Of a stretch of DNA of 64,000 bases, positions 34,422 to 46,025 are shown one piece after another (positions within the stretch are counted from its first letter, which is position 1; the number at the start of each line of letters is the position of its first letter). Location: the NCBI RefSeq assembly GCF_017368795.1, contig NZ_JAFNLL010000012.1, positions 1 to 64,000 of the forward strand. The letters are read 5' to 3'. This stretch comes from Arthrobacter cavernae. Lineage in GTDB: Bacteria > Actinomycetota > Actinomycetes > Actinomycetales > Micrococcaceae. The position numbers and the translations under genes are program-made. The notes under the pieces were generated by a model. The model saw only the letters and a list, made by a program, of their open reading frames with translations. It was not told the DNA's origin and made no database searches.

Positions 34422-36923
34422 CTAGCGCAGCTCGATGTCCAGGACCTGGAAATCATCGGCCGCATGGCGGCCCACCAGCAGCTGGAACGTTCCGGGCTCA
34501 AACTGCCAGCCGCCGTCGTAGTGGCCGAAGGAACGGGCTGGGAGCAGCACTTCAACGCTGTCCGCGCCGCCGGCGGCCAGGTGCACGTCCGCAAAGCCGG
34601 CCAGCCAGCGCACGGGACGCTCCACGGCGGAATCCTTGCGGGCGAGGTACACCTGCACCACTTCGCGGCCCGTCCGCTTGCCCGTGTTGCTCACGGGCAC
34701 GTGGACTCGCACGTCCTGGCCTGCCAGGACGGACGCCGGGGCGTGGGCCCCGCCGAATTCGAACGTGGAATAGCCCAGGCCGAAGCCGAACGGGTAGGCC
34801 GGGGCGGCGCCGCCGGCGGCTTCCTGCCGGAGCCAGGCGCGGTAGCCGATGTGGATGCCCTCGGAGTACACCACCTTGCCGTCCACCGGCGTGGTGCTCA
34901 GCACGGGACCGTCCTCAAGGGTGGCCGGCCACGTGGTGGGGAGGCGTCCGCCCGGTTCCGCCGCGCCCAGCAGGATGTCGGCGACGGCAGCGCCGAATTC
35001 CTGTCCGCCGAACCAGCCCAGCAGCACCGCGCCCACCTTGTCCCGCCACGGCATCAGCACCGGGGATCCCGAGTTGACCACCACCACCGTGCGCTGATTC
35101 ACCGCGGCCACGGCCTCCACGAGCCGGTTCTGGTGCCCGGGCAGGTCGAGGTCCTGGCGGTCGAAGCCCTCGGACTCGATCGCGGCGTTGGTGCCGACCA
35201 CCACCACGGCGACGCCGGCCGTCCGGGCCGCCTCCACGGCGGCGGCGATCTCCGCGTCCGGATCCTCGACGACGGTTTCCTCGCCCAGCAGGATGGCTGT
35301 CAAGGGGATTTCCTGCTGTGCCGGCAGCCGGTACACGGCCTCGATGGAGATACGCTGCCCGGCCTCGGCCTGGACAGCATGCACGGACTGCGGCGGGGCG
35401 AACAAGGCCGCGCCCAGCACGTTCGTGTCGTCATGGATGGTGTCGTTGAAGAGTTCGACGCCGTCGATCTCCAGCCGGACTTCGCCCACCGTGCCGACGC
35501 CCAGGTGGTGCACACCGGCGGTTTCGGCCGTCCATTCAGTCTGCATGCGGATCGCTGCTGCACCCTCGGGGATGCCGACGCCGAACCAGATCAGGTGCGA
35601 GGCCAGCCGGTCCTCACCCGAGATTTCGGTGCCGTCGGCAGCCAGGAAGCTGACGCGCATGCCGGGAACGCCGGACACCGGGTTGTGGAGTGCGGTCCGG
35701 GCGAAGGGCTGCAGCCCCTCGGCCACCTTGGCGCCGCGGACATAGCTGAGCTCGACGTTGCCGGGCAGGGCCTTCCGCAGCCCTTCCAGCGGCGAGACGG
35801 TGTATTTGGGCATCACGGTGGCGCTGCCGCCGCCCTGGGTGCGCGCTTCCTCGGCGTTGTGGCCGATGACGGCGACGCTGCCCAGCGCCGCGGCGTCCAG
35901 CGGCAGCAGGCCGCCCTCGTTGCGGACCAGCACGGCGCCCCGCACGGCCACCTCGCGGGCCAGCGCGGCGCCGTCGAGCTGCGCGGGAAGCTCCCGGACG
36001 GCCGGTTCGAAGCCCTCCAGGACCCCCACCCGGGCGGCCAGGCGCAGGATGCGGGTGGCCTTTTCCAGGATCGCGTCGCGGCTGACCCGGCCGTCCTCGA
36101 CGGCGGCGAGCAGCTTGGCGCCCCAGTGGCCCACGGGGCCCGGCATCTCCAGGTCCTGGTGGGCATTGGCGGCCTCCACGGACCGCACGCCGGTCCAGTC
36201 CGAGACCACTACGCCGTCGAAGCCCCACTCGGTGGAGAGCGGCGTTTCCAGGAGTTTGTTCTCACTGGCGGTGGTGCCGTTGATGGAGTTGTAGGAGCTC
36301 ATCACCAGCCACGCGCGGGCTTCGGTGATGGCGTCCTCGAAGGCCGCCAGGTAGAGCTCCCGCAAGGGGCGCTCGTCCACCACGGAGTCGGCCGTGAAGC
36401 GATCAGTCTCGGCCTCGTTGGCCAGGTAGTGCTTGGGGGTCGCGCCAACGCCCATGGACTGCACGCCGGCCACATAGCCGGCAGCCATGGTGGCGGTGAG
36501 GCGGGGGTCTTCGCTCATGCACTCGAAGTGGCGGCCGCCCAAGGGTGAGCGGTGCAGGTTGATGGTGGGGCCCAGGACGACGTGGACGCCCTTGCGGCGG
36601 GCCTCCTGGCCCAGGACCTGTCCGTAACTCCGGGCCAGCTCGACGCTCCACGTCGCAGCGAGGGCCGACGACGACGGCAGCGAGACGGAGTCGTGGCGCT
36701 CGTCGAAGTCCTCGCCGCGGACCCCGGACGGGCCGTCGGAGAGCACAATGCGCTTCAGGCCGATCTCCGGGATGCCGTGCGTGGACCAGACATCGGCGCC
36801 GGTCAGCAGCCTGAGCTGCAGCTCAAGGCTGAGGGAGCGGGCAGTTTCGCGGATCCGGGCGTCGTCGTCGGGAAAGATTGCCGCGGAGGGCTCGACGGCG
36901 GACGGGGACAGTACGGGGTTCAC
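34422..36923 (-). CDS. Glycoside hydrolase family 3 beta-glycosidase with PA14 insert
   Basis: This enzyme probably hydrolyses beta-linked oligosaccharides inside the cell, as no signal peptide is seen. The 833-residue protein has the GH3 barrel with LSDGPSGVRGE, KHYLANE (about 164-170) and the nucleophile Asp242 in VVVSDWTGV. The second GH3 domain holds VIGHNAEEARTQGGGSA. A PA14-like segment (about 400-560) interrupts it. A fibronectin-like domain ends the chain. The start GTG 36923 has AGGAG eight bases upstream, inside the MFS 3' end. It forms an operon with the MFS gene, which suggests uptake and cleavage of a glycoside. Exact specificity is unknown. Confidence 0.9.
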   Translation of the reverse strand: MNPVLSPSAVEPSAAIFPDDDARIRETARSLSLELQLRLLTGADVWSTHGIPEIGLKRIVLSDGPSGVRGEDFDERHDSVSLPSSSALAATWSVELARSYGQVLGQEARRKGVHVVLGPTINLHRSPLGGRHFECMSEDPRLTATMAAGYVAGVQSMGVGATPKHYLANEAETDRFTADSVVDERPLRELYLAAFEDAITEARAWLVMSSYNSINGTTASENKLLETPLSTEWGFDGVVVSDWTGVRSVEAANAHQDLEMPGPVGHWGAKLLAAVEDGRVSRDAILEKATRILRLAARVGVLEGFEPAVRELPAQLDGAALAREVAVRGAVLVRNEGGLLPLDAAALGSVAVIGHNAEEARTQGGGSATVMPKYTVSPLEGLRKALPGNVELSYVRGAKVAEGLQPFARTALHNPVSGVPGMRVSFLAADGTEISGEDRLASHLIWFGVGIPEGAAAIRMQTEWTAETAGVHHLGVGTVGEVRLEIDGVELFNDTIHDDTNVLGAALFAPPQSVHAVQAEAGQRISIEAVYRLPAQQEIPLTAILLGEETVVEDPDAEIAAAVEAARTAGVAVVVVGTNAAIESEGFDRQDLDLPGHQNRLVEAVAAVNQRTVVVVNSGSPVLMPWRDKVGAVLLGWFGGQEFGAAVADILLGAAEPGGRLPTTWPATLEDGPVLSTTPVDGKVVYSEGIHIGYRAWLRQEAAGGAAPAYPFGFGLGYSTFEFGGAHAPASVLAGQDVRVHVPVSNTGKRTGREVVQVYLARKDSAVERPVRWLAGFADVHLAAGGADSVEVLLPARSFGHYDGGWQFEPGTFQLLVGRHAADDFQVLDIELR

Positions 36924-38189
36924 TTACTTGACTCCTTTGATGCGGGTGACGAGGGCGGCGCCGATGATGCCAACGACGGCCGCGCCGATGAACAGCGCCG
37001 AATAGCCACCCCAGGCGATGACGGGGAATGCCAGGGCCGGCACGAGCGACTGGGGGAGTGCCTGGGCGATGTTGAAGACACCGAAGGTCTTGGCGTTCTC
37101 GCTCTGGTTGCCCGGCAGCAGGTCTGTGATGAGGGCGACGTCGACGGCGCCGAAGCAGCCCAGGCCCAGCCCAACGACGGTCTGGCCCACCATGACCTGG
37201 CCCGTGGAGGCGCTCGTGGCGATGATGATGAGGCCGATCATGATGATCAGGGCCGAGGCGATGACGAGGACCTTGCGCTTGCCGATCCTGTCGCTGATCC
37301 AGCCACCGATAAGGCTGGTGACCACAGTGCCCACGGAGCTGACCAGGGTTGCCTGGAAGACGAGTCCTGCCACGGCCGACTCCGCGACGTGGAGCTGGTC
37401 CGTGAAGAAGTACGGCAGGTAGAGCAGGGCGGCGCAGTAACCGATGAAGACCATGAACTTGGTGAGCCAGGCCCAGCCCAGGCCCGGGAAGGCGCGGGGA
37501 TCGAAGTAGAAGGAGCCCAGGATTTCCTTGAGGTTCAGCGGGGCGGGCTTTTCCGTGAGGACCCGGTCCTTGAAGGTGAACGCGAAGGCGATAGCGAGGA
37601 CGGTGCCCGTGATGCCCGGCACGATGGCCATCTGGAAGGCGTTGTCGAAGAGCTGCGCGAAGTAGGCGGCGGCCACCAGCCCGATGGGCAATGTCATGCC
37701 GATCAGGCCCGAGAGCCGGCCACGCTCGGCGGGGGCCGCCTGGTCAGGCAGGGTGGCAACGAGCGCTGCGAGGGCGGCGTTGAAGCCCAGCTGGGCGAAG
37801 ATCCAGGCCACCATCACCCCTGCCACGTTCCCGGCCAGGCCGAGAAAGAACAGGGCGGCAAGCCCGGTGAGGGCGCCGCCGATGATCCATGGCTTCCGCA
37901 TGCCAAACCGGGAGGTGGTCCGGTCGCTCAGCCGGCCGAACAGGGGATTGGCGAGCAGTGCGACGATCGCCCCGACGCCGGCAACCAGGCTCAGTGCGCC
38001 GGCGCGGGTGTCCGGCGTCGTGATTTCCGAGACCTTGATGGCCAGCACCACGATGGCCGGAGCGAGCAGTGCCATCCAGAGCCCGGCGCTGGCGATCGGC
38101 ATGCCGATAACGTAGGCGCGCGGTGCCGGCACGGCTGCGGCGGGCCCGGACACTGCTGCTGGGGTTTGGGGAATGGTCTTGATGGCCAC
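36924..38189 (-). CDS. Major facilitator superfamily sugar transporter
   Basis: This 12-helix transporter has 421 residues. It shows an MFS loop 2-3 motif NPLFGRLSDRTTSRFGMRKPW and the related GGWISDRIGKRK between helices 8 and 9, which place it near sugar:cation symporters. Its partner in the operon is a GH3 glycosidase, so the substrate is probably a glycoside or oligosaccharide. I choose GTG 38189, because AGGAGG lies five bases before it; the frame extends to 38216. A candidate -10 TAGGAT (minus strand, 38234-38239) lies just downstream of the TetR-type operator. Confidence 0.85.
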   Translation of the reverse strand: MAIKTIPQTPAAVSGPAAAVPAPRAYVIGMPIASAGLWMALLAPAIVVLAIKVSEITTPDTRAGALSLVAGVGAIVALLANPLFGRLSDRTTSRFGMRKPWIIGGALTGLAALFFLGLAGNVAGVMVAWIFAQLGFNAALAALVATLPDQAAPAERGRLSGLIGMTLPIGLVAAAYFAQLFDNAFQMAIVPGITGTVLAIAFAFTFKDRVLTEKPAPLNLKEILGSFYFDPRAFPGLGWAWLTKFMVFIGYCAALLYLPYFFTDQLHVAESAVAGLVFQATLVSSVGTVVTSLIGGWISDRIGKRKVLVIASALIIMIGLIIIATSASTGQVMVGQTVVGLGLGCFGAVDVALITDLLPGNQSENAKTFGVFNIAQALPQSLVPALAFPVIAWGGYSALFIGAAVVGIIGAALVTRIKGVK

Positions 38190-38245
38190 GTTGCCTCCTG
38201 ACGGGAAGTGGCCCACCTTTGGGCCATGGGGAAGATCCTAGCCGC

Positions 38246-38270
38246 AAAAACCGAGTCTGACTAGGTTTTT
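38246..38270. promoter_or_regulatory. TetR-type operator between MFS and TetR genes
   Basis: Arms AAAAACCGAG (38246-38255) and CTAGGTTTTT (38261-38270) are inverted with one mismatch and a 5-base centre. The site lies directly upstream of the MFS -10 candidate and 19 bases before the TetR -10 at 38289, so one protein could repress both directions. Confidence 0.65.
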
Positions 38271-38300
38271 GATGAAATGAAGGTGAAATAGGCTGTCTGG

Positions 38301-38900
38301 ATGTCCACTTCGAAGTCGCGCGGGCCGTACGCCAAGGGGGCGGAACGCCGCGAACAGATTGTCCAGACCGCCACCGATGTCTTTGCCACGGAGGGTTTTG
38401 AAGGCACGGCACTCAAGCGCGTGGCCGAACTCGTGGGGGTCAGGGAGGCCACGCTCTTCCACTATTTCCGCGGCAAACAGGAGCTTCTGACGGCCGTGCT
38501 CGCGGAGCGCGACCGCCGAGGAATGGACACGGTCGGATCCGACCACGTGGCCCTGCCCGGGCTGGCGGCCGTGGCCGAGCGCAACAGCAGGGAGCCGGGC
38601 CTCACCACCCTGTACACGGTGGCCTCCGCAACCGCGAACGATCCCGGGCATGACTCGCACGCGTATTTCCGGCAGCGGTATGCGTGGCTGGTCCAGGAAC
38701 TCGGTGCGGACATCACGGCGCGGCAGGCGGCCGGCGAGGTGCGCACAGACCTGCCCGCCGACGCCCTGGCCCGGCTCGTCATAGCGTCCTTCGACGGCCT
38801 GCAGTTGCAGTGGCTCTACGACAAGGACCTCGATGTGGCGGAGGGTCTCCGCGGGCTGATCGACGTGATCCTGGCCCCGCCCGGGAAAGCTACGCCCTGA
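38301..38900 (+). CDS. TetR/AcrR-family regulator
   Basis: This 199-residue repressor has the N-terminal HTH GAERREQIVQTATDVFATEGFEGTALKRVAELVGVREATLFHYFRGKQELLTAVL. The C-terminal ligand domain is helical and not assignable to an effector. It is divergent from the MFS-GH3 operon and is the likely local regulator through the inverted repeat at 38246-38270. ATG 38301 follows TAGGCT by six bases, a predicted leaderless start. Its 3' end overlaps the convergent LacI-type gene by 11 bases. Confidence 0.9.
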   Translation: MSTSKSRGPYAKGAERREQIVQTATDVFATEGFEGTALKRVAELVGVREATLFHYFRGKQELLTAVLAERDRRGMDTVGSDHVALPGLAAVAERNSREPGLTTLYTVASATANDPGHDSHAYFRQRYAWLVQELGADITARQAAGEVRTDLPADALARLVIASFDGLQLQWLYDKDLDVAEGLRGLIDVILAPPGKATP

Positions 38901-39903
38901 CCGGTCCCGTGCTGCCCCGGACTTCCATCTGCGGTGCGAAGTAGTCGGTGGGGGATTCGGCGTCGTTGTTCATGATCAGGTCACGCATGCGCCGCCATGC
39001 GAGGTCGCCCAGGCTGGCAATGGGGACCGCCGCCGTGGTGAGCGGAGGCATGGTGTACCGCGCGAACGGCATGTCATCGAAGCCGGTGACGGATATGTCC
39101 TCGGGGACGCGGATGCCACGCGCGCTGAGACCGTTGAGGAGCCCCATGGCGGCGAGGTCGTTGAAGACCAGGATGCCGGTGGCGCCGCTGGCCTGCACGG
39201 CATCCGTTGCCTCGAAACCGGCGTCGAAGGTGTTCCCGCCGGGCAGGATCTGCAGCTCAACCCCGGGGAAATCGGCGGTGAACTGCCTCAGGCCCGCGAG
39301 CCGCTGCACATTCGAGGCGCTGGCCTCGGGGCCGGTCAGGTAGAGCAGCCGGCGGTGGCCGAGTCCCACCAGATGGGCGCCCAGTTCCTGGATGCCCTGG
39401 CCGTAGTCCACCACCAGGCTGGGTGTGGGCACTGACGCGGTGGTGCGGTTGATGAGGACCAGTGGATACAAGGACGGGGCAAGCTCCTCGAGTTCGGCGT
39501 CGCTCATGCGTGGGGCGCAGAGCACCACGCCGTCGCAGCGGCGCCTGGCCTCACCGGCGAGGATGGCTTCCTCGCTTGAGACCTCGGAGGAGTCGGCAAT
39601 CAGGACCCTGTAGCCGTCCCGTGCTGCGGCGACGCTGAGGCCGCGGAGGATGGCCTGGAAGGTGGGGTTGGAGAGATCCGGGACCACGATGCCGATCGTG
39701 TCCGATTTTCCCAGCGCCAGGCTGCGGCCCATGGGATTCGGCTTGTACTTCAGTTCGGTGGCGGCGGCGCGCACACGGGCTGCGATGACCGGATCAACAC
39801 TGGTGTTTCCGTTCATGACCCGAGACACCGTGGCATGTGACACTCCGGCCTTGAGGGCGACGTCGGCGATGCCGATGCGCCGGGTTTCGCGTCTGCCCGC
39901 CAT
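38890..39903 (-). CDS. LacI-family regulator
   Basis: This 337-residue sugar-responsive regulator has the LacI HTH and hinge: RIGIADVALKAGVSHATVSRVMNG (residues 10-33) and YKPNPMGRSLALG. A periplasmic-binding-like core follows with IGIVVPDLSNPTFQAILRGL, GILVFNDLAAMGLLNGL and ISVTGFDDMPFARYTMPPLTT. By proximity it may act on the GH3-MFS operon, but the only LacI-type operator I see is in front of its own gene (39956). The start is ATG 39903. Confidence 0.92.
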   Translation of the reverse strand: MAGRRETRRIGIADVALKAGVSHATVSRVMNGNTSVDPVIAARVRAAATELKYKPNPMGRSLALGKSDTIGIVVPDLSNPTFQAILRGLSVAAARDGYRVLIADSSEVSSEEAILAGEARRRCDGVVLCAPRMSDAELEELAPSLYPLVLINRTTASVPTPSLVVDYGQGIQELGAHLVGLGHRRLLYLTGPEASASNVQRLAGLRQFTADFPGVELQILPGGNTFDAGFEATDAVQASGATGILVFNDLAAMGLLNGLSARGIRVPEDISVTGFDDMPFARYTMPPLTTAAVPIASLGDLAWRRMRDLIMNNDAESPTDYFAPQMEVRGSTGPVRA

Positions 39904-39955
39904 GGAGTCCTTCCTCTGCCAAAACTCTCCTGCAACAGAAGCCTAGCGGGTGCGG

Positions 39956-39967
39956 GGAAGCGTTTTC
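39956..39967. promoter_or_regulatory. LacI-type operator upstream of the LacI gene
   Basis: On the minus strand this reads GAAAACGCTTCC, which fits the GAAANCGNTTNC half-site symmetry of LacI-family operators with the central CG. It lies about 52 bases upstream of the LacI start codon, suggesting autoregulation. Confidence 0.5.
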
Positions 39968-40059
39968 TCTGCATGACTCCGGGGTCACGGTGCATGACGC
40001 CGGGACGGGAGCACGCACGGGGCTCTAGGAACGGCAAGGTGCCACATCGTGGACGGAAT

Positions 40060-40089
40060 TTGGCGGGCCCGGGAGGCCCGGGCTATGGT
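40060..40089 (+). promoter_or_regulatory. Promoter of the aro leader/DAHP synthase transcript
   Basis: A -35-like TTGGCG (40060-40065) and -10 TATGGT (40084-40089) are separated by 18 bases. The -10 lies six bases before the leader peptide ATG at 40096, so the transcript should begin at or next to that ATG. Confidence 0.65.
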
Positions 40090-40095
40090 GTGTCC

Positions 40096-40155
40096 ATGAC
40101 TAACCGTTGGTATGCGTATTTTTCGTTGGCTCTGGAGGGGCCCGCGTCGCACTGA
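40096..40155 (+). CDS. Aromatic-rich leader peptide of the DAHP synthase gene
   Basis: This 19-codon ORF encodes MTNRWYAYFSLALEGPASH. Trp5, Tyr6, Tyr8 and Phe9 form a dense cluster of the three aromatic amino acids made by the pathway that starts with the downstream enzyme. It starts leaderlessly from the promoter at 40060-40089. Codons 10-15 form the 5' arm of a 14-bp stem with 40171-40184. The arrangement is that of ribosome-mediated attenuation: stalling at the aromatic codons when charged tRNA is short would block this stem. I know of leader-peptide attenuation in front of aromatic genes in Corynebacterium, so the principle is established. The function here is inferred. Confidence 0.75.
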   Translation: MTNRWYAYFSLALEGPASH

Positions 40156-40264
40156 CACGCATCCAACACACCTTCAGAGCCAACAGGGCAGAGATCATTC
40201 TCTGCCCTTCGCCATATCCGGCGGGTTCTGAACTGGGACCCGCTCCACATCCGGAACAGGACCC
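40125..40264 (+). promoter_or_regulatory. Predicted attenuator structures before the DAHP synthase gene
   Basis: Stem 1:2 pairs 40125-40138 with 40171-40184 (14 bp, one G-U). Stem 3:4 pairs 40185-40194 with 40199-40208 (perfect 10 bp, loop TCAT). A third hairpin pairs 40221-40229 with 40235-40243. Its 5' arm (40223-40230) can instead pair with CAGGACCC at 40257-40264, which contains the Shine-Dalgarno AGGA of the next gene. Arms 2 and 3 share CAGAG, and arms 1 and 4 share CTCTG, so alternative pairings are possible. No strong T tract follows stem 3:4, so control may act on translation. Confidence 0.65.
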
Positions 40265-40267
40265 ATC

Positions 40268-41416
40268 ATGACCAGCATCGCCGCAGAAACCACCGAAACC
40301 GAAGGCCGCGCCCTGAACGGCGGCGCCAGCCAGCCGTCGACGTCGAACCTGCGCGTCAGCCGCTTCGAGCCCCTTCCCGCCCCGCAGGAAGTGATCGCCG
40401 AACTGCCGCTGACCGAGAAGACCGCCGCCGTCGTCGAACGCGGCCGCGACGAAGTCCGCGCCATCATGGACGGCGTGGATGACCGCCTCCTGGTGATCGT
40501 GGGACCGTGCTCCATCCACGACCCCAAGGCCGGCCTCGAATACGCCCGCCGCCTGGTCAGCCAGGCCGAAAGGCACAAGGAAGACCTGCTGGTGGTCATG
40601 CGTGCGTACTTCGAAAAGCCGCGCACCACGGTGGGCTGGAAGGGCCTCATCAACGATCCCCACCTGGACGGCAGCCACGACATCGCCGCCGGCCTGCGCG
40701 CCGCCCGCGGCTTCCTGCACCAGGTGACGGCCCTGGGCCTGCCCACCGCCACCGAATTCCTCGAGCCGATCAGCCCGCAGTACATGGCCGACCTCGTCTC
40801 CTGGGGCGCCATCGGCGCCCGCACCACTGAAAGCCAGATCCACCGCCAGCTCGCTTCCGGGCTGTCCATGCCGATCGGCTTCAAGAACGGGACCGACGGC
40901 GACCTCCAGGTCGCGATCGACGCCTGCGGTGCCGCTGCAGCGCAGCAGGCTTTCCTGGGGATCGACGGCGACGGCCGTGCGGCCCTGGTGGCCACCGCCG
41001 GAAACCCGGACACCCACGTCATCCTGCGCGGCGGACGCAAGGGCCCCAACTACTCCGCAGACGACGTCGCGGCGGCCTCCGGACGCCTCTCGGCCAAGGG
41101 CCTGAACCCGCGCCTGATCGTGGACGCCAGCCACGCCAACAGCGGCAAAAGCCACCACCGCCAGGCCGAGGTCGCCCTCGAAATCGGTGCGCAGCTGGAG
41201 GCGGGGGAATCGTCCCCGATCGCAGGCGTCATGCTCGAGAGCTTCCTGGTGGGCGGCGCCCAGAACCTGGACGTCGAGCAGCAGCTCTCCGGCGCTGCCG
41301 AACTCGTCTACGGCCAGAGCGTCACCGATGCCTGCATGGAATGGGATGTCACGGTGTCCGTGCTGGATCAGCTCGCCGCCTCTGCCCGGAAGCGCCGGCT
41401 GGCAACGGCCGCGTAG
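40268..41416 (+). CDS. aroG: Class I DAHP synthase (first step of aromatic amino acid synthesis)
   Basis: This enzyme condenses phosphoenolpyruvate with erythrose-4-phosphate to form DAHP. The 382-residue protein is of the AroF/G/H class I type: LVIVGPCSIHDPKAGLEYARRL, MRAYFEKPRTTVGWKGLINDPHLDGS, TEFLEPISPQYMADLVSWGAIGART, VDASHANSGKSHHRQ and GVMLESFLVGGAQ. These carry the metal and phosphate ligands. The first 35 residues are an extension typical of such proteins. ATG 40268 has AGGA at 40258-40261. The preceding leader peptide suggests control by aromatic amino acid supply. The gene symbol (aroG versus aroF/H) is a label only. Confidence 0.93.
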   Translation: MTSIAAETTETEGRALNGGASQPSTSNLRVSRFEPLPAPQEVIAELPLTEKTAAVVERGRDEVRAIMDGVDDRLLVIVGPCSIHDPKAGLEYARRLVSQAERHKEDLLVVMRAYFEKPRTTVGWKGLINDPHLDGSHDIAAGLRAARGFLHQVTALGLPTATEFLEPISPQYMADLVSWGAIGARTTESQIHRQLASGLSMPIGFKNGTDGDLQVAIDACGAAAAQQAFLGIDGDGRAALVATAGNPDTHVILRGGRKGPNYSADDVAAASGRLSAKGLNPRLIVDASHANSGKSHHRQAEVALEIGAQLEAGESSPIAGVMLESFLVGGAQNLDVEQQLSGAAELVYGQSVTDACMEWDVTVSVLDQLAASARKRRLATAA

Positions 41417-41574
41417 GCCCTCCGGGAACGCCGTTTTACCCCAGACCCCTTTCACAGCGGCACCATCAGCACCTAGAGTATCTAGCACATGGTTGGATTG
41501 ATGGCTCAGCATCGACGGACCCGTGCAATATCGTGGCGTCACTGTCGCGAGCTGAGAGCAAAGGAATAAGAGAA

Positions 41575-41787
41575 ATGTCTGCAGGGACTAACTTCTCGAA
41601 TGCGCGCTTCATGACCGTGGCGGAAGTAGCCGAGGTCCTGCGCGTTTCCAAGATGACCGTGTACCGCTTGGTCCATTCGGGGGAAATGCCTGCCGTCAGG
41701 TTCGGCCGGTCTTTCCGGGTTCCTGAAGAAGCTGTGGCACAGTACCTCAAAAGTGCCATCGTGGACGGACAATCCGAGTCCGCCTGA
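41575..41787 (+). CDS. BldC/excisionase-like small HTH protein
   Basis: This 70-residue MerR-superfamily DNA-binding protein consists of a single HTH_17-type domain: FMTVAEVAEVLRVSKMTVYRLVHSGEMPAVRFGRSFRVPEEAVAQYL. It resembles Streptomyces BldC and the mycobacterial Rv0500A product. The latter, as I recall, also lies beside a bS22-type gene, so I read it as a chromosomal regulator rather than a phage excisionase. ATG 41575 has AAGGA about nine bases upstream; the open frame to 41341 is a shadow of aroG. Confidence 0.88.
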   Translation: MSAGTNFSNARFMTVAEVAEVLRVSKMTVYRLVHSGEMPAVRFGRSFRVPEEAVAQYLKSAIVDGQSESA

Positions 41788-41961
41788 GGCCTGCTTTGGT
41801 CCGTTGAGCGGACGGCGGTCACGGGGTGCCCCGGATAGGCGGTACCCTGTTAAGGAACGTTTTACGTCATCGTAAGAATCTGTCAGTTGACGAGTCTGTT
41901 GCTCAGTTCAAGGACCTCACCCAGCAGACAGGATCTTCATCTAGTTTGGTAAGGAACTTTC

Positions 41962-42060
41962 GTGGGTTCAGTTATTAAGAAGCGTCGCAAGCGTATGGCC
42001 AAGAAGAAGCACCGCAAGCTGCTTCGCAAGACCCGCCACCAGCGCCGCAATAAGAAGTAG
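41962..42060 (+). CDS. Small ribosomal subunit protein bS22 (AURKAIP1/COX24 domain)
   Basis: This 32-residue, extremely basic peptide begins VGSVIKKRRKRMAKKKHRK and ends TRHQRRNKK. It matches the actinobacterial 30S protein bS22, which binds 16S rRNA near the decoding region. The GTG start has AAGGAA six bases upstream. The 174 bases before it form an untranslated leader or intergenic region that contains no other ORF. A strong terminator follows at 42081. It is easily missed because of its size. Confidence 0.9.
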   Translation: MGSVIKKRRKRMAKKKHRKLLRKTRHQRRNKK

Positions 42061-42080
42061 AGATACTTCACAAAGCGTAA

Positions 42081-42114
42081 ATGCCCGTCGCCTTCCGAGG
42101 TGGCGGGCATTTTT
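42081..42114 (+). terminator. Intrinsic terminator of the bS22 gene
   Basis: A 12-bp stem with two G-U pairs (42081-42092 with 42099-42110) is followed by five T residues (42110-42114). This is the clearest Rho-independent terminator in the window. Confidence 0.88.
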
Positions 42115-42130
42115 GCGTCCGGGTTGGCGG

Positions 42131-42190
42131 GTTTATGTACACATCGCGCCCTTATCGCCCGGCCTTTGAGGGCGAGAGGTGTACATAAAC
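42131..42190. repeat. Roughly 60-bp palindromic repeat, copy A
   Basis: The element starts GTTTATGTACA and ends TGTACATAAAC, with internal GCCCTT, GGCCT and AGGGCG blocks. The same pattern occurs at 53852-53910. It lies between the bS22 terminator and the convergent HAD gene and could terminate both strands. Confidence 0.85.
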
Positions 42191-42200
42191 TCCAGTGGGC

Positions 42201-43019
42201 CTAGACCCGCGGGCCGCGGAACTTGGAGAAGCCCCGCCACAGGCCGTACACGGCACCGCCAACGGTCGCGGCCTTCAGCCCGAGGGTGGCGGCGCGGCGG
42301 CCGGAACGGAAGTCGTACACGGGCCAGTTGTACTCGCGGGCATGGCGGCGCAAGGACGCGTCCGGGTTGATGACCACCGGGTGGCCCACCAGGGTCAGCA
42401 GCGGGATGTCGTTGTGCGAGTCGCTGTAGGCCCAGCAGCGGTCAAGGTCCAGGCCCTCTTCCTCGGCCACGCGTTTCACCGCCACGGCCTTGGCCGGGCC
42501 GTGCAGGATCTCGCCCACCAGCTTGCCGGTGTACTTGCCGTCGTGGATTTCGCCGACGGTGCCGAGTGCGCCTGTGAGGCCGAGCCGGGTGGCGATGACG
42601 CTGGCCACTTCAATGGGGGTGGCCGTCACCAGCCACACCTTCCGGCCGACACGCAGGTGCTGTTCGGCCAGGGCCTTGGTGCCCGGCCAGATCCGCGACT
42701 CGATCATTTCGTCGTAGACTTCTTCGCCGAGTTCCTTGACGTCGGCCACGGCGATGCCGGCCGCGAGCGTCAGTGCGGAATCCCGCACCGAGCGCACATC
42801 GTCCATGTTCTCGCCGCGCAGCACGAACTTGAACTGCTTCCAGGCGAATCCGGCGGCCTGCGACAGCGTGAACGCCTTGCGTTCGTACATCTTGCGCGCC
42901 ACGTGGAAGAGGCTGGCGCCCTTCATCAGGGTGTTGTCGACGTCGAAGAATGCGGCTTCGCCGTGGTGCTGCGGTGCGTTGGGCGCCTTGGCCGCAGCGG
43001 CGTTCTTCTCGTCGGGCAT
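42201..43019 (-). CDS. HAD-IB phosphatase (SerB1-like)
   Basis: This is a 272-residue haloacid dehalogenase superfamily hydrolase of subfamily IB. The nucleophile motif is AAFFDVDNTLMKGASLF (DxDxT form), the second motif is VWLVTATPIEVASVIA, and the third is CWAYSDSHNDIPLLTLVGHPVVINPD. Members include phosphoserine phosphatase-like proteins, but the substrate cannot be fixed. The C-terminal RSGRRAATLGLKAATVGGAVYGLW segment may be membrane-associated. ATG 43019 has TAGACT six bases upstream (leaderless). Confidence 0.88.
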   Translation of the reverse strand: MPDEKNAAAAKAPNAPQHHGEAAFFDVDNTLMKGASLFHVARKMYERKAFTLSQAAGFAWKQFKFVLRGENMDDVRSVRDSALTLAAGIAVADVKELGEEVYDEMIESRIWPGTKALAEQHLRVGRKVWLVTATPIEVASVIATRLGLTGALGTVGEIHDGKYTGKLVGEILHGPAKAVAVKRVAEEEGLDLDRCWAYSDSHNDIPLLTLVGHPVVINPDASLRRHAREYNWPVYDFRSGRRAATLGLKAATVGGAVYGLWRGFSKFRGPRV

Positions 43020-43115
43020 GCCTTGAGTCTAGTCAATCGCCGGAGCCTTGCGGTGCCGGCCGGGCCCGGCCGGCCCGCGTCGACGGCGCGCCCCGCCTCC
43101 CGTTACCGTTGAGGC

Positions 43116-43370
43116 ATGCCGAATCCCGACGTCGTTCTTCTCACCAAAGCTGACTGCCACCTGTGCGCTGCCGCGCGCGACGCCGTCCAACGCGTGACCT
43201 CCGGGCTGGGGTTGGGCTGGACGGAGAAGTCCATCGAAGCCGACCCCGCCCTGCAGGAGCGCTACGCGGAAGAAATCCCCGTGGTGCTGGTGGACGGGAT
43301 CCAACGGGACTTCTGGAAGATCGATGAGGCCCGGCTGACGCGCGTTCTCCAGAAGGCATTGGACGGCTGA
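43116..43370 (+). CDS. Glutaredoxin-like thioredoxin-fold protein
   Basis: This 84-residue protein has the DUF836/glutaredoxin-like fold: VVLLTKADCHLCAAARDAV with a CxxC redox pair (CHLC), and EEIPVVLVDG carrying the cis-proline. It may reduce disulfides or act as a thiol sensor. Rex, the redox repressor, is encoded 85 bases downstream on the same strand, which gives a redox theme. ATG 43116 follows TACCGT by six bases, so it is predicted to be leaderless. Confidence 0.9.
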   Translation: MPNPDVVLLTKADCHLCAAARDAVQRVTSGLGLGWTEKSIEADPALQERYAEEIPVVLVDGIQRDFWKIDEARLTRVLQKALDG

Positions 43371-43455
43371 GCCGGCTGCACGTTCTGACACGGCTTTGTT
43401 GCGTCCGGCAACGGAGTCATAGAGTGGAACAACCAAGAGACGCAATGGAGAGACC

Positions 43456-44151
43456 GTGACTGCGCTGGAACCGTCGCCCAAGGCGACAACAGGGGATCAA
43501 GAATCTGCCGCCAAGCAGATTCCGCCCGCGGCCGTGGCCCGGATGACCCTCTACCTGCGCGCGCTGAACTCCCTGCTGGCCGAAGGCGTGGAACGGGTGT
43601 CGTCCGAGGCGCTGGCCGAGGCCTCCGGTGTCAGTTCCTCCACGCTGCGCAAGGACCTCTCGTACGTGGGCTCCTACGGCACGCGCGGGGTGGGCTACGA
43701 GGTCCAGAACTTGAGCCGCCACATCGCCGCGGCCCTGGGACTGACACACGACTGGAAGGTCGCAATTGTCGGTGCCGGCAACCTCGGCAAGGCCCTCGCC
43801 CGGTACGGCGGTTTCGAATCCCGGGGTTTCGACGTCGTGGCGATCTTCGACGCGGACCCCATGGTGATCGGAAACGAGGTCGGCTGGCTGCGGGTCAGCG
43901 ACAGCGCCGAGCTGGAGCGCGTCCTGGAACGGACGGGTGCCAACATGGTGGTGCTCGCCCTGCCGGCCACCGTGGCGCAGGAGGTCTGCGACCGCGTGAT
44001 CGCCGCCGGCATCCGCAGCATCCTCAGCTTCGCCCCGGTCCTGCTGCAGGTGCCCCCGCACGTCAACCTGCGCAAAGTGGACATGGCCACCGAACTGCAG
44101 ATCCTCGCCTACCATGCACAACGGGCGCAGACACCGGGCCAGGCAGTCTAG
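43456..44151 (+). CDS. rex: Redox-sensing transcriptional repressor Rex
   Basis: Rex binds DNA when the NADH/NAD+ ratio is low and controls respiratory genes. It has 231 residues. The winged helix is AVARMTLYLRALNSLLAEGVERVSSEALAEASGVSSSTLRKDLSYVGSYGTRGVGY. The NAD-binding motif is VAIVGAGNLGKALARY, and FAPVLLQVPPHVNLRKVDMATELQILAY ends the domain-swapped helix. GGAGAGACC precedes GTG 43456. A TAGAGT -10 near 43420 suggests a short leader. I see no Rex operator in this intergenic region. Confidence 0.94.
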   Translation: MTALEPSPKATTGDQESAAKQIPPAAVARMTLYLRALNSLLAEGVERVSSEALAEASGVSSSTLRKDLSYVGSYGTRGVGYEVQNLSRHIAAALGLTHDWKVAIVGAGNLGKALARYGGFESRGFDVVAIFDADPMVIGNEVGWLRVSDSAELERVLERTGANMVVLALPATVAQEVCDRVIAAGIRSILSFAPVLLQVPPHVNLRKVDMATELQILAYHAQRAQTPGQAV

Positions 44152-44194
44152 CCCCGGCCGGGTCCGCGCCCGCTCGCTTGTGGGTCTCCGCGGC

Positions 44195-44935
44195 CTAGCG
44201 GCCGTACGGGTTCCCCGGCTGGTTGTAGGGGTTCGCGAAAGGCTGGGCCTTGCGGAAGTACGGTGCCGAGGCCGGCAAGTACAGCAGCACGATCGCGGCG
44301 ATGCCCAGCAGGATGGTGATGGTGCCCACACCGATCTGGGTCAGCCCCAGCAGTGAAATTGCGGCGAAGACCGTTCCGAGGATGCGTGCCCAGTTCTTGC
44401 CCTTGCGGACGCCGAATGCAACCAGGGCGTAGAGCCCGGCGAAGATCACCGAGACGACAATGAAGACGGTGACCAGGCCGCCGATGAGGCTGTCGGCGTC
44501 GATGCCCGAGGCATTGCTGCCCTGGGCAGCCAAGGCCTCCTCGATCATGCGCTTGCCTTCCGGCGAATTCAGCGTGGCGGACGCGAACGGGATGCCGATC
44601 AAGGTCAGCAGCCCGGCCGCAAGGATCAGCCAGAAGGAGATGTTGACCAGTTGCGGCACGCCGGCCGGCGCTGGCTGCTGGCTCGGCCACACGTTCTGCT
44701 GTGCGTACGGGGAGGGCTGCTGGCCGTAGGGCGAGGGCTGCTGGCCGTACGGGGGCGGCTGCTGGCCATACTGGGGAGCCTGCTGGCCGTACTGCGGGGC
44801 GGCGGGCTGGCCCGGCTGAGGAGCCTGCTGGCCGTACTGGGGAGCCTGCTGGCCGTACTGCGGCTGTTCGGGGGTTCCGTTGCCGGGGCTGGTTCCGTCA
44901 CCCGGGTTGGACGGCGGATAGGGAGGGTTGCTCAT
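44195..44935 (-). CDS. Membrane protein with Gln/Tyr/Pro-rich repeat tail
   Basis: The 246-residue protein has a cytoplasmic-looking N-terminal tail of about 90 residues made of repeated YGQQ units (PQYGQQAPQYGQQ and similar). Four membrane segments follow: FWLILAAGLLTLIGIPFA, LVTVFIVVSVIFAGLYALVAFG, ILGTVFAAISLLGL and ITILLGIAAIVLLYLPAS. The layout parallels the gene at 45158-45814. The function is unknown; low-complexity tails of this type often mediate clustering. AAGGAA precedes ATG 44935. Confidence 0.8.
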   Translation of the reverse strand: MSNPPYPPSNPGDGTSPGNGTPEQPQYGQQAPQYGQQAPQPGQPAAPQYGQQAPQYGQQPPPYGQQPSPYGQQPSPYAQQNVWPSQQPAPAGVPQLVNISFWLILAAGLLTLIGIPFASATLNSPEGKRMIEEALAAQGSNASGIDADSLIGGLVTVFIVVSVIFAGLYALVAFGVRKGKNWARILGTVFAAISLLGLTQIGVGTITILLGIAAIVLLYLPASAPYFRKAQPFANPYNQPGNPYGR

Positions 44936-45091
44936 GGCGTTCCTTTGCTTGGTCGACTGCGATAGCGGCTGCCGGGTGCAGCAAAACGACCCTGCCCCCA
45001 GCCTGGCTTAATTCCACCGTACCCCGCAGCAAGGCGCCCGGGAGGATCACACGCAGGAAATGTGGATGCCGGGGAGAGGAAGCGCGCAAAG

Positions 45092-45130
45092 AAGGCCACG
45101 GCAGGTCCTGGGACAGCTTGCCGTGGCCTT
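45092..45130 (-). terminator. Terminator of the 45158-45814 gene
   Basis: Perfect 12-bp arms (45092-45103 and 45119-45130) enclose a 15-base loop. On the minus strand the stem is followed by CTTTGC. It lies 28 bases after the gene's stop. Confidence 0.7.
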
Positions 45131-45157
45131 CAGTTGTGAGAGAGCGGTGGGACGGGA

Positions 45158-45814
45158 CTACACGAAGTGCTTCTGCGATTCCGGGAGCCACATCAGGACG
45201 GCTGCTGCGACTGCTGCGGCCGATCCGATGAAGTTGACGTTGAGGGTCATGAGCTGGAACAGCAGCGCAATGGCCGCCAGCCCGCCCAGGATCGACAGCA
45301 CCAGGCGCGCCCAGCGGGCGCCTTCCTTCAGCCGTATCGCAATGAATACGTAGAACGCTGCGAAGACCAGGCTGAACACGAGGCCCGCAATGCCGGCCCC
45401 GATCAGCAGTTCGCCGAACGCGCTCTGGATAGTGAAGATGTTGACAATGCTTGCTACGACTCCAAGGGCTGCGGCTGCGATCCATAGCCAGTAGGAAATG
45501 GTCAGTTGCTGCGGCACACCGGTGGTGTCCCTGAGCCGCTGGGCGATGTTGTTGAAATCCAGTCCAAAGGCGTTGCGGGCCGGGGCGGCATAGCCAAGGC
45601 CCGCCGGCGGTGCGTTGTTGGGGCCCGCGGGGACTCCGTAGCCCGGCATCGGCTGGCCCGGCTGTGCCGGCGGCTGGTACGCCTGCGGCGGCTGGTATCC
45701 CTGCGGAGGCTGGTATCCCTGCGGAGGCTGGTAACCCGCAGGAGGGACATTGCCAGGCTGTGGTGGCTGTGCGTCTGGCTGCTGAGGTTGAGGAACTTCG
45801 TTTGGGTTACTCAT
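45158..45814 (-). CDS. Membrane protein with YQPPQG repeat tail
   Basis: The 218-residue protein begins with a Pro/Gln-rich region containing tandem GYQPPQ units. A short amphipathic stretch (FGLDFNNIAQRLRDTTGV) leads into four membrane segments: LWIAAAALGVVASIVN, LLIGAGIAGLVFSLVFAAFYVFIAIRL, LVLSILGGLAAIALL and NFIGSAAAVAAAVLMWLP. It is a paralogue by layout of the 44195-44935 product. ATG 45814 has TAAAGT seven bases upstream, so it appears leaderless and separately transcribed. The frame extends to 45952 without support. Confidence 0.8.
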   Translation of the reverse strand: MSNPNEVPQPQQPDAQPPQPGNVPPAGYQPPQGYQPPQGYQPPQAYQPPAQPGQPMPGYGVPAGPNNAPPAGLGYAAPARNAFGLDFNNIAQRLRDTTGVPQQLTISYWLWIAAAALGVVASIVNIFTIQSAFGELLIGAGIAGLVFSLVFAAFYVFIAIRLKEGARWARLVLSILGGLAAIALLFQLMTLNVNFIGSAAAVAAAVLMWLPESQKHFV

Positions 45815-45925
45815 GGCACTCACTTTAGACCCGGGGTTGAAGGATGCATAGGAGATTTTCAGCCAATTTGATGCCACCTGCCGGGGCTTGTCCAAAGAAT
45901 TGCCGGAGGTCCCCAGGGCAAGAAA

Positions 45926-45968
45926 ACGGCGCCCCCAGTTCGTGCAATGCACGACTTGGAGGCGCCGT
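45926..45968 (-). terminator. Terminator of the YceI gene
   Basis: A long stem of about 18 bp with few mismatches (arms starting ACGGCGCC at 45926 and ending GGCGCCGT at 45968) is followed on the minus strand by TTTTCTTG. This is a good intrinsic terminator for the yceI-like gene ending at 46026. Confidence 0.8.
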
Positions 45969-46025
45969 GGGCGCTGGTTCAGACGTCCTGCCGACGCAGG
46001 GACTGCCCGTACTTATACGGCAGAC

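Follow-up and report, generated by a model that had tools for sequence, protein, structure and literature searches.

An aromatic leader peptide and alternative RNA helices upstream of the type I DAHP synthase gene in Arthrobacter cavernae and other actinobacteria

How the expression of 3-deoxy-D-arabino-heptulosonate 7-phosphate (DAHP) synthase, at the entry of the shikimate pathway, is adjusted to the supply of aromatic end products is the question raised by a locus of Arthrobacter cavernae in which a type I synthase gene is preceded by a short open reading frame (ORF) crowded with aromatic codons. The locus lies in a 64,000-nucleotide stretch of contig NZ_JAFNLL010000012.1 (positions 1 to 64,000 of the forward strand, hereafter the window). 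The leader very probably tunes DAHP synthase to the supply of aromatic amino acids, and the mechanism that we favour, and consider probable though far from certain, is an AroR-type leader-peptide switch, operated by the ribosome, through which the supply of charged aromatic tRNAs sets the expression of the type I synthase. The leader, a promoter-like hexamer and the synthase gene lie as follows:

40084-40089, + strand: -10-like hexamer TATGGT, which would have transcription begin at the leader ATG or right beside it
40096-40155, + strand: leader peptide ORF, MTNRWYAYFSLALEGPASH, 19 codons from ATG 40096 to TGA 40155, with the control codons UGG UAU GCG UAU UUU at 40108-40122
40268-41416, + strand: type I DAHP synthase gene (aroF/G/H type, 382 amino acids), from a profile match

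The initial annotation had proposed a 19-codon leader with Trp5, Tyr6, Tyr8 and Phe9, and reading of the sequence confirms it to the base (W5, Y6, Y8 and F9). Across both strands of the 64 kb, only two ATG or GTG starts open an ORF of 9-35 amino acids with at least four aromatic residues in five codons, and these are probably the leader ATG at 40096 and an in-frame GTG at 40090. The leader stop is separated by 112 bases from the start of the synthase gene, the product of which matches the class I DAHP synthase model TIGR00034 at 482.8 bits (cut-off 173.2). A sigma-70 scan requiring a -35 box found no promoter for the leader. A TANNNT/G hexamer starts 12 or 13 bases 5' of the start codon in 130 of the 161 leaders scanned (130 with n = 154 after cleaning, see below), a placement that, judged from sequence, fits a leader ORF translated without a leader of its own.

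The element is conserved throughout the genus and beyond it. The 231-base stretch 40060-40290 gave one match per genome, at 85% identity or more, in 101 genomes (its own and 100 of the same genus), and across 94 distinct sequences there is hardly any variation, wobble positions included, in the aromatic codons or in segment 1, an RNA arm within the leader ORF (see below), indicating a constraint on the RNA as well as on the peptide. In a comparison of the best 80 synthase loci in named genomes, headed by records of Arthrobacter and Paenarthrobacter, an aromatic leader was present at 80 of 80, 75 of them found by a pattern scan and five (L066, L067, L074, L077 and L078) recognised separately; two are reduced, with Tyr only in Brachybacterium (L067) and Trp plus Tyr in Actinotalea (L077). 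Such leaders stand upstream of type I DAHP synthase genes in Microbacterium, Brachybacterium, Actinotalea and several further families. For the wider survey the synthase protein served as the guide, because strict filters on a covariance model (R1) had let through just 6 of 396 genomes; the survey went on with genomes whose synthase match reached E 1e-80, leaving aside 117 of 149 genomes of the order and 194 of 246 of the class, and in family f6, where 171 of 201 genomes matched, only part of the upstream regions was taken and only part of the sequences was read by eye. The order search found the leader at 19 of the 26 loci read, for example RRWRYFVVALEGP, RWFTYAKSALEGP, RWYWRFTPAPLGA and VRWYWFVSAPAAA; the seven loci without one all belong to family f77, which has two synthase genes. 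The class search found it at 16 of 27 loci, with one locus masked and ten loci, all of family f102, lacking an aromatic leader in the stretch read (L148, L149, L152, L153, L156, L158, L162, L165, L169 and L172); GCGTTAGGG lies upstream of the synthase in five of these (L149, L153, L156, L169 and L172). At 48 further loci (47 of family f6 and one of f7), the element was picked by script in 47 and by eye in L219, with leader types that include YWRFIEAPGG, YFWFSRPAPGG and, where the genome is small, WRFYF and RFYF. Overall the script assigned an element to 198 of 219 loci, of which ten wrong assignments were then removed, and it missed at least five loci with a genuine leader (L010, L057, L103, L160 and L219). 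The cleaned set comprises 154 non-redundant leaders, read individually in part; counts given with n = 141 or n = 161 precede the cleaning.

Within the cleaned set, 139 of 154 leaders combine Trp, Tyr and Phe codons; the others carry Phe and Tyr (11), Trp and Tyr (2), Tyr alone (1) or Phe and Trp (1). The order of the aromatic residues varies, with 20 patterns in 141 leaders. Codon choice is narrow: UAU accounts for 233 of 236 leader Tyr codons and UUU for 149 of 163 Phe codons, and outside the RWYAYF type, that of the window, the counts are 89 of 92 and 80 of 89. Both codons are rare in the 33 long ORFs of the window, where UAU supplies 11.9% of the Tyr codons and UUU 5.6% of the Phe codons. 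Elements of this kind are now seen in several actinobacterial groups, with the aromatic set kept and the rare wobble codons nearly fixed.

The region between the control codons and the synthase start contains a series of segments that can pair in alternative ways:

40125-40138, + strand: segment 1, 5' arm of helix 1:2, within the leader ORF, with the core GGCUCUGGAGG from 40128
40171-40184, + strand: segment 2, partner of either segment 1 or segment 5
40185-40208, + strand: hairpin 3:4 (40185-40194 with 40199-40208, 10 pairs), present in both modelled states
40210-40213, + strand: segment 4b, CGCC, which with 5a (GGCG, 40220-40223) closes the third helix of a three-way junction
40220-40232, + strand: segment 5, consisting of 5a (GGCG, 40220-40223) and 5b (GGUUCUGAA, 40224-40232)
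40238-40243, + strand: segment 6, ACCCGC, 3' arm of hairpin 5:6
40257-40264, + strand: segment 7, the Shine-Dalgarno (SD) region CAGGACCC, from sequence and folding

Helix 1:2 comprises 14 pairs, one of them G-U, and the third hairpin, 5:6, joins 40221-40226 to 40238-40243. Segment 5b resembles arm 1 and finds its partner in segment 2 at 40173-40181, while 40223-40230 (GGGUUCUG) is complementary to the SD region over eight pairs, one of them U-G. The folding energy of 40096-40290 is -81.5 kcal/mol, compared with -57.1 +/- 4.5 for 200 dinucleotide shuffles (z -5.4). Stems 1:2 and 3:4, the third hairpin and the pairing of segment 5 with the SD had all been predicted by the initial annotation and are present where it placed them. 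However, its set of competing structures lacked the actual competitor, helix 2:5, through which segment 2 partners segment 5 instead of segment 1. For segments 3 and 4 no alternative partner was found, and 3:4 coexists with 2:5 in the models of the window.

Comparative evidence supports this scheme at several levels. In an alignment of 29 sequences, helices 1:2, 3:4 and 5:6 are 98.2% paired over 867 cells, and 10 of their 30 pairs are changed on both sides; double changes affect 6 of the 10 pairs of hairpin 3:4 and 2 of the 6 pairs of helix 5:6, which by itself is 97.1% paired. Helix 4b:5a is 100% paired, with a double change in two of its four pairs, each in one sequence, and the three-way junction as a whole (2:5, 3:4 and 4b:5a) is 98.0% paired. 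The aromatic codons are kept in relatives and the arms of 1:2 and 3:4 covary, as an aromatic leader-peptide control region before DAHP synthase, the central proposal of the initial annotation, had led one to expect. Beyond the genus, swap tests compared segments paired with their own and with swapped, unselected regions; kinship is only partly removed by this procedure, and the within-group values are the fairer ones. Across 59 representatives, segment 2 with its own downstream region scored -15.9, compared with -13.8 +/- 0.30 when swapped, and 0 of 20000 permutations were as low; one locus (L078), mis-segmented in this test, was left out of the later ones. With 49 representatives, helix 2:5 gave z -6.2 over the whole set and -2.4 within groups (with 1% of permutations equally low), reaching z -3.1 in the 20 Mycobacteriales-type elements; helix 1:2 gave -8.1 and -4.0, and the SD with the 5/6 region gave -3.9 by both measures (-4.5 in the 20 Mycobacteriales-type and -1.8 in the 16 Micrococcales-type elements). 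Controls pairing segment 1 with the 5/6 region (+0.1) or with the SD (+0.4) were null, and segment 2 pairs with the SD more weakly than swapped regions do (z +3.1). In further tests, one of them on 46 representatives, segment 5 was picked for its best pairing with segment 2 of the same element and segment 6 for its pairing with segment 5. The resulting values for 2:5 (z -6.8, -3.7) and 5:6 (-8.6) are biased by this choice and are not relied on, and a one-base segment additionally distorts the ungrouped 5:6 value of the 46; those of segments 5 and 6 with the SD in the 46 are unaffected. A helix of the aromatic codons with 4b, suggested by RNAalifold, was rejected, as it showed no covariation (z +1.4; within groups +0.1).

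Under the AroR-type reading, charged aromatic tRNAs would let the ribosome leave the leader, upon which 1:2 would re-form and segment 5 would become available to segment 6 or to the SD; with 1:2 formed and segment 5 engaged in this way, synthase expression would be low. A ribosome halted at the last aromatic codons would instead lie over the beginning of segment 1, leaving segment 2 to pair with 5b; 3:4 and 4b:5a would complete the three-way junction, and the SD would be freed. The spacing is compatible with such occlusion. The last aromatic codon starts 8 bases before the core of arm 1 in 134 of 154 leaders and 11 bases before it in 12 (other or unclear in 8); in the window this codon begins 5 bases before the arm and 8 before its core. 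A ribosome reaches about 12 bases beyond the first base of its A-site codon; halted with the A site at Tyr8 or Phe9, it would cover the start of segment 1, and the 5b-pairing part of segment 2 would be released.

Over the wider family, segment 6 covaries with the SD (z -5.3; within groups -4.5; 46 representatives). Among the RWYAYF-type elements (66 distinct; 5 dropped; SD taken as the 20 bases before the start codon) the partner is mostly 5b, with z -2.8 for 5b:SD and +1.0 for 6:SD; 5b pairs with the SD more strongly by over 1 kcal in 45 of 66 and segment 6 in 18, and GGACCC occurs within the SD in 53 of 66. This type comes in two forms, one with 5b GGGUUCUG and segment 6 GGGCCCGC, the kind of the window, and one with 5b GGGCUCUG and segment 6 GGGUCCGC. 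When helices are forced, the SD-AUG region of the window is predicted to be 25% unpaired with segment 2 held by segment 1 and 68% unpaired with 2:5, and of 15 Micrococcales-type representatives, 10 have the SD opened by 2:5 and one has it closed. On these models, translation is most likely the output in the genus, a preference short of proof that cannot be extended to the whole family; premature termination is possible as an additional output there.

Several results weigh against this reading. No pair of helix 2:5 is changed on both sides in the 29-sequence alignment, and the helix therefore depends for support on the wider family, where its swap value is z +0.5 in the 16 Micrococcales-type and -1.0 in the 13 mixed elements; in the same mixed group the SD with the 5/6 region gives only -0.2. 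Over the wider family the pairing of segment 5 with the SD is without covariation (z -0.3), so that this part of the initial annotation stands for RWYAYF-type elements, while in the family at large it is segment 6 that covaries with the SD. Forced 2:5 opens and closes the SD in 3 and 4 of 18 Mycobacteriales-type representatives and in 4 and 2 of 12 others. In unforced folding of 55 representatives with arm 1 free, with arm 1 blocked or with a ribosome at the stop codon, there is no systematic difference at the SD (blocked versus free: 10 up, 9 down). Control of translation initiation, as first suggested, stays plausible from the complementarity of the SD to the 5/6 region and its predicted opening with 2:5, but finds no support in unforced folding. 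The weak point of simple occlusion concerns Trp5 and Tyr6. Their codons start 20 and 17 bases ahead of the arm 1 core (17 and 14 ahead of its first pair), probably too far from segment 1 to be read in this way, and the retention of Trp is left unexplained by that model. Sensing of all three end products, also proposed at the outset, is suggested by codon conservation but for Trp5 and Tyr6 is not explained by occlusion.

Among known systems, the aroR attenuator of aroF in C. glutamicum (Corynebacterium glutamicum) comes closest, and the Arthrobacter element is a variant of that kind. Neshat and colleagues reportedly described this attenuator upstream of aroF in 2014, and the C. glutamicum attenuators of that work are said to be leaderless. 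According to the accessible text of the review PMC11802643, the aroR leader (Phe-Tyr-Phe) raises transcription of the aroF operon on Phe limitation, and Phe but not Tyr availability affects the operon, which agrees with occlusion by the nearest codons only. The portion of PMC4046766 available reports the Phe-Tyr-Phe leader and attenuator transcripts at aroF, and aroR is termed a translational regulatory leader peptide in the available part of PMC7356990, whereas the effect in PMC11802643 is transcriptional. In both elements a leader peptide with closely spaced aromatic codons directly precedes a type I DAHP synthase gene. However, aroR has Phe-Tyr-Phe only, as far as these excerpts go, whereas the window has Trp-Tyr-x-Tyr-Phe, and the 2:5 alternative, the three-way junction and the SD complementarity form no part of the portions of the aroR descriptions compared. 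Forms intermediate toward the Corynebacterium element occur in further families and in members of f6, where three loci from small genomes, probably of Corynebacterium (L203-L205), have WRFYF or RFYF leaders resembling the C. glutamicum Phe-Tyr-Phe, with the arms GGCUCCGG / CCGGAGCC in L203 and L205.

The trp and pheA leaders of Escherichia coli are the classical ribosome-mediated attenuators, and the window shares with them leader-peptide control codons and mutually exclusive helices. Unlike in these, its control codons lie upstream of arm 1 and do not overlap it, and no 2:3 antiterminator opposed to a 3:4 terminator was found, the alternative of segment 2 being segment 5 with 3:4 in both states. 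Among Actinobacteria, the main text of Seliverstov et al. 2005 (PMC1262725), so far as available, treats trp, ilvB and cys leaders, a LEU element and ileS T-boxes, that is, leader peptides with or without terminators and, in the ileS T-boxes, SD sequestration within the same phylum; for Phe and Tyr operons it describes no conserved upstream structures, and DAHP, aroF and aroG do not appear in it. In a literature search that left subscription literature mostly outside, the texts and excerpts found described leader control of DAHP synthase only in C. glutamicum. The element would offer a testable example of three end products being read by one leader where the shikimate pathway begins; the alternative pairing scheme gives clear predictions, and the element is a possible handle for engineering aromatic production in actinobacteria.

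Other mechanisms would also account for parts of these data. Transcription attenuation, in which 3:4 (or 5:6) terminates when the leader is freely translated and stalling leads to read-through, as in the trp operon, is a serious alternative that we nevertheless hold to be unlikely. The GC-rich hairpin 3:4 is preserved through many double changes, attenuator transcripts and a transcriptional response are reported for C. glutamicum aroF in the parts of PMC4046766 and PMC11802643 available, and six f6 relatives (L176, L178, L189, L199, L210 and L218) have a real U tract of 7 U in the 10 bases after 3:4, so termination may be an output in some lineages. In the window, however, the hairpin is followed by UCGCCAUAUC (40209-40218), a poor tract with just 3 U in 10, and a terminator scan called none on the + strand, in line with the lack of a clear T tract remarked on before; neither 3 nor 4 has an alternative partner, 3:4 stands in both modelled states, and YFWF-type elements seemingly do without it (by eye). 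An inverted switch, in which a halted ribosome spares 1:2, completion of the leader breaks 1:2 in favour of 2:5, and expression is on with 1:2, is kept as a rival owing to the distance of Trp5 and Tyr6 and the unexplained retention of Trp, although we regard it as distinctly improbable. The aromatic codons, Trp too, lie upstream of arm 1, the last of them at its fixed spacing; counted from the first base of the leader stop, segment 2 begins at a distance of 10-17 bases in 119 of 141 leaders, which a terminating ribosome would at most just reach; and the 6:SD covariation of the wider family would close the SD once 2:5 releases segment 6. Against this, the 1:2 state has the more closed predicted SD in the window and its relatives, the SD partner in this type is mostly 5b, and the missing Tyr effect in C. 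glutamicum (PMC11802643, available part) fits the nearest-codon reading. If true, the inverted switch would be widespread in actinobacteria, reverse the logic of trp and make the codons for all three aromatics count.

That the nascent peptide itself (R-W-Y-x-Y-F and the like) arrests the ribosome in response to free aromatic amino acid, not uncharged tRNA, seems very doubtful to us: the aromatic set, often preceded by Arg, recurs widely, but the residue order and spacing differ between families while the set is kept, and the conserved C-terminal ALEG/APGG is accounted for by the RNA arm, in which the bases are nearly fixed at wobble positions as well. We give the least credence of all to a mere 5' untranslated structure serving stability or spacing, with a peptide that is translated to no effect, as the rare codons UAU and UUU are kept across orders, the spacing to arm 1 is fixed, and covariation is found in the mutually exclusive helices 1:2 and 2:5.

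The same genome encodes a second DAHP synthase, of type II (contig C68, 52012-53304, locus L226; PF01474, 662.5 bits), with no aromatic leader within 300 bases 5' of its open frame; it may itself start leaderless. Control at the committed step, as originally envisaged, therefore holds in that an aromatic leader control region precedes a DAHP synthase gene, with the qualification that the type II enzyme also serves the step. The other three matches to the element in the genome were rejected as further copies, being two antisense pieces of it and one match at E 0.9. A T-box, a riboswitch or another Rfam 15 family was likewise rejected, as the leader is unmatched by 4227 models, T-box included, at E up to 1; the only Rfam match listed in 35000-46000, at 37222-37298, lies outside it.

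Divergent to the leader and sharing its intergenic region is a gene at 38890-39903 (- strand), which we take from its sequence to encode a LacI-type regulator. Immediately 3' of the synthase gene, 41577-41787 encodes a small helix-turn-helix protein, presumably resembling BldC/excisionase-type proteins.

Some elements depart from the common form. Ten elements of one genus (g369) of family f6 (L181-L183, L185, L187, L188, L190, L192, L194 and L201) read YWRFMWAPGG; segment 1 itself here contains an additional Trp codon, and these elements might respond to Trp by direct occlusion. Nine YFWF-type elements, perhaps from Nocardia and its relatives (L206-L208, L211-L215 and L217), viewed by eye, apparently lack hairpin 3:4, with 2:5 then a plain hairpin, and a CCUG/CAGG hairpin lies over the SD in L208, L211, L213 and L214. 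L031 is a natural variant in which the reading frame of the leader changes (MTNRWYAYFSLCSGGARV), so that the latter half of the peptide differs. Finally, an assembly titled Sporosarcina beigongshangi (L055, NZ_JADHDY010000003.1) has an Arthrobacter-type synthase (79% identity) with a full RWYAYFSLALEGPASN leader, and is probably mislabelled or contaminated.

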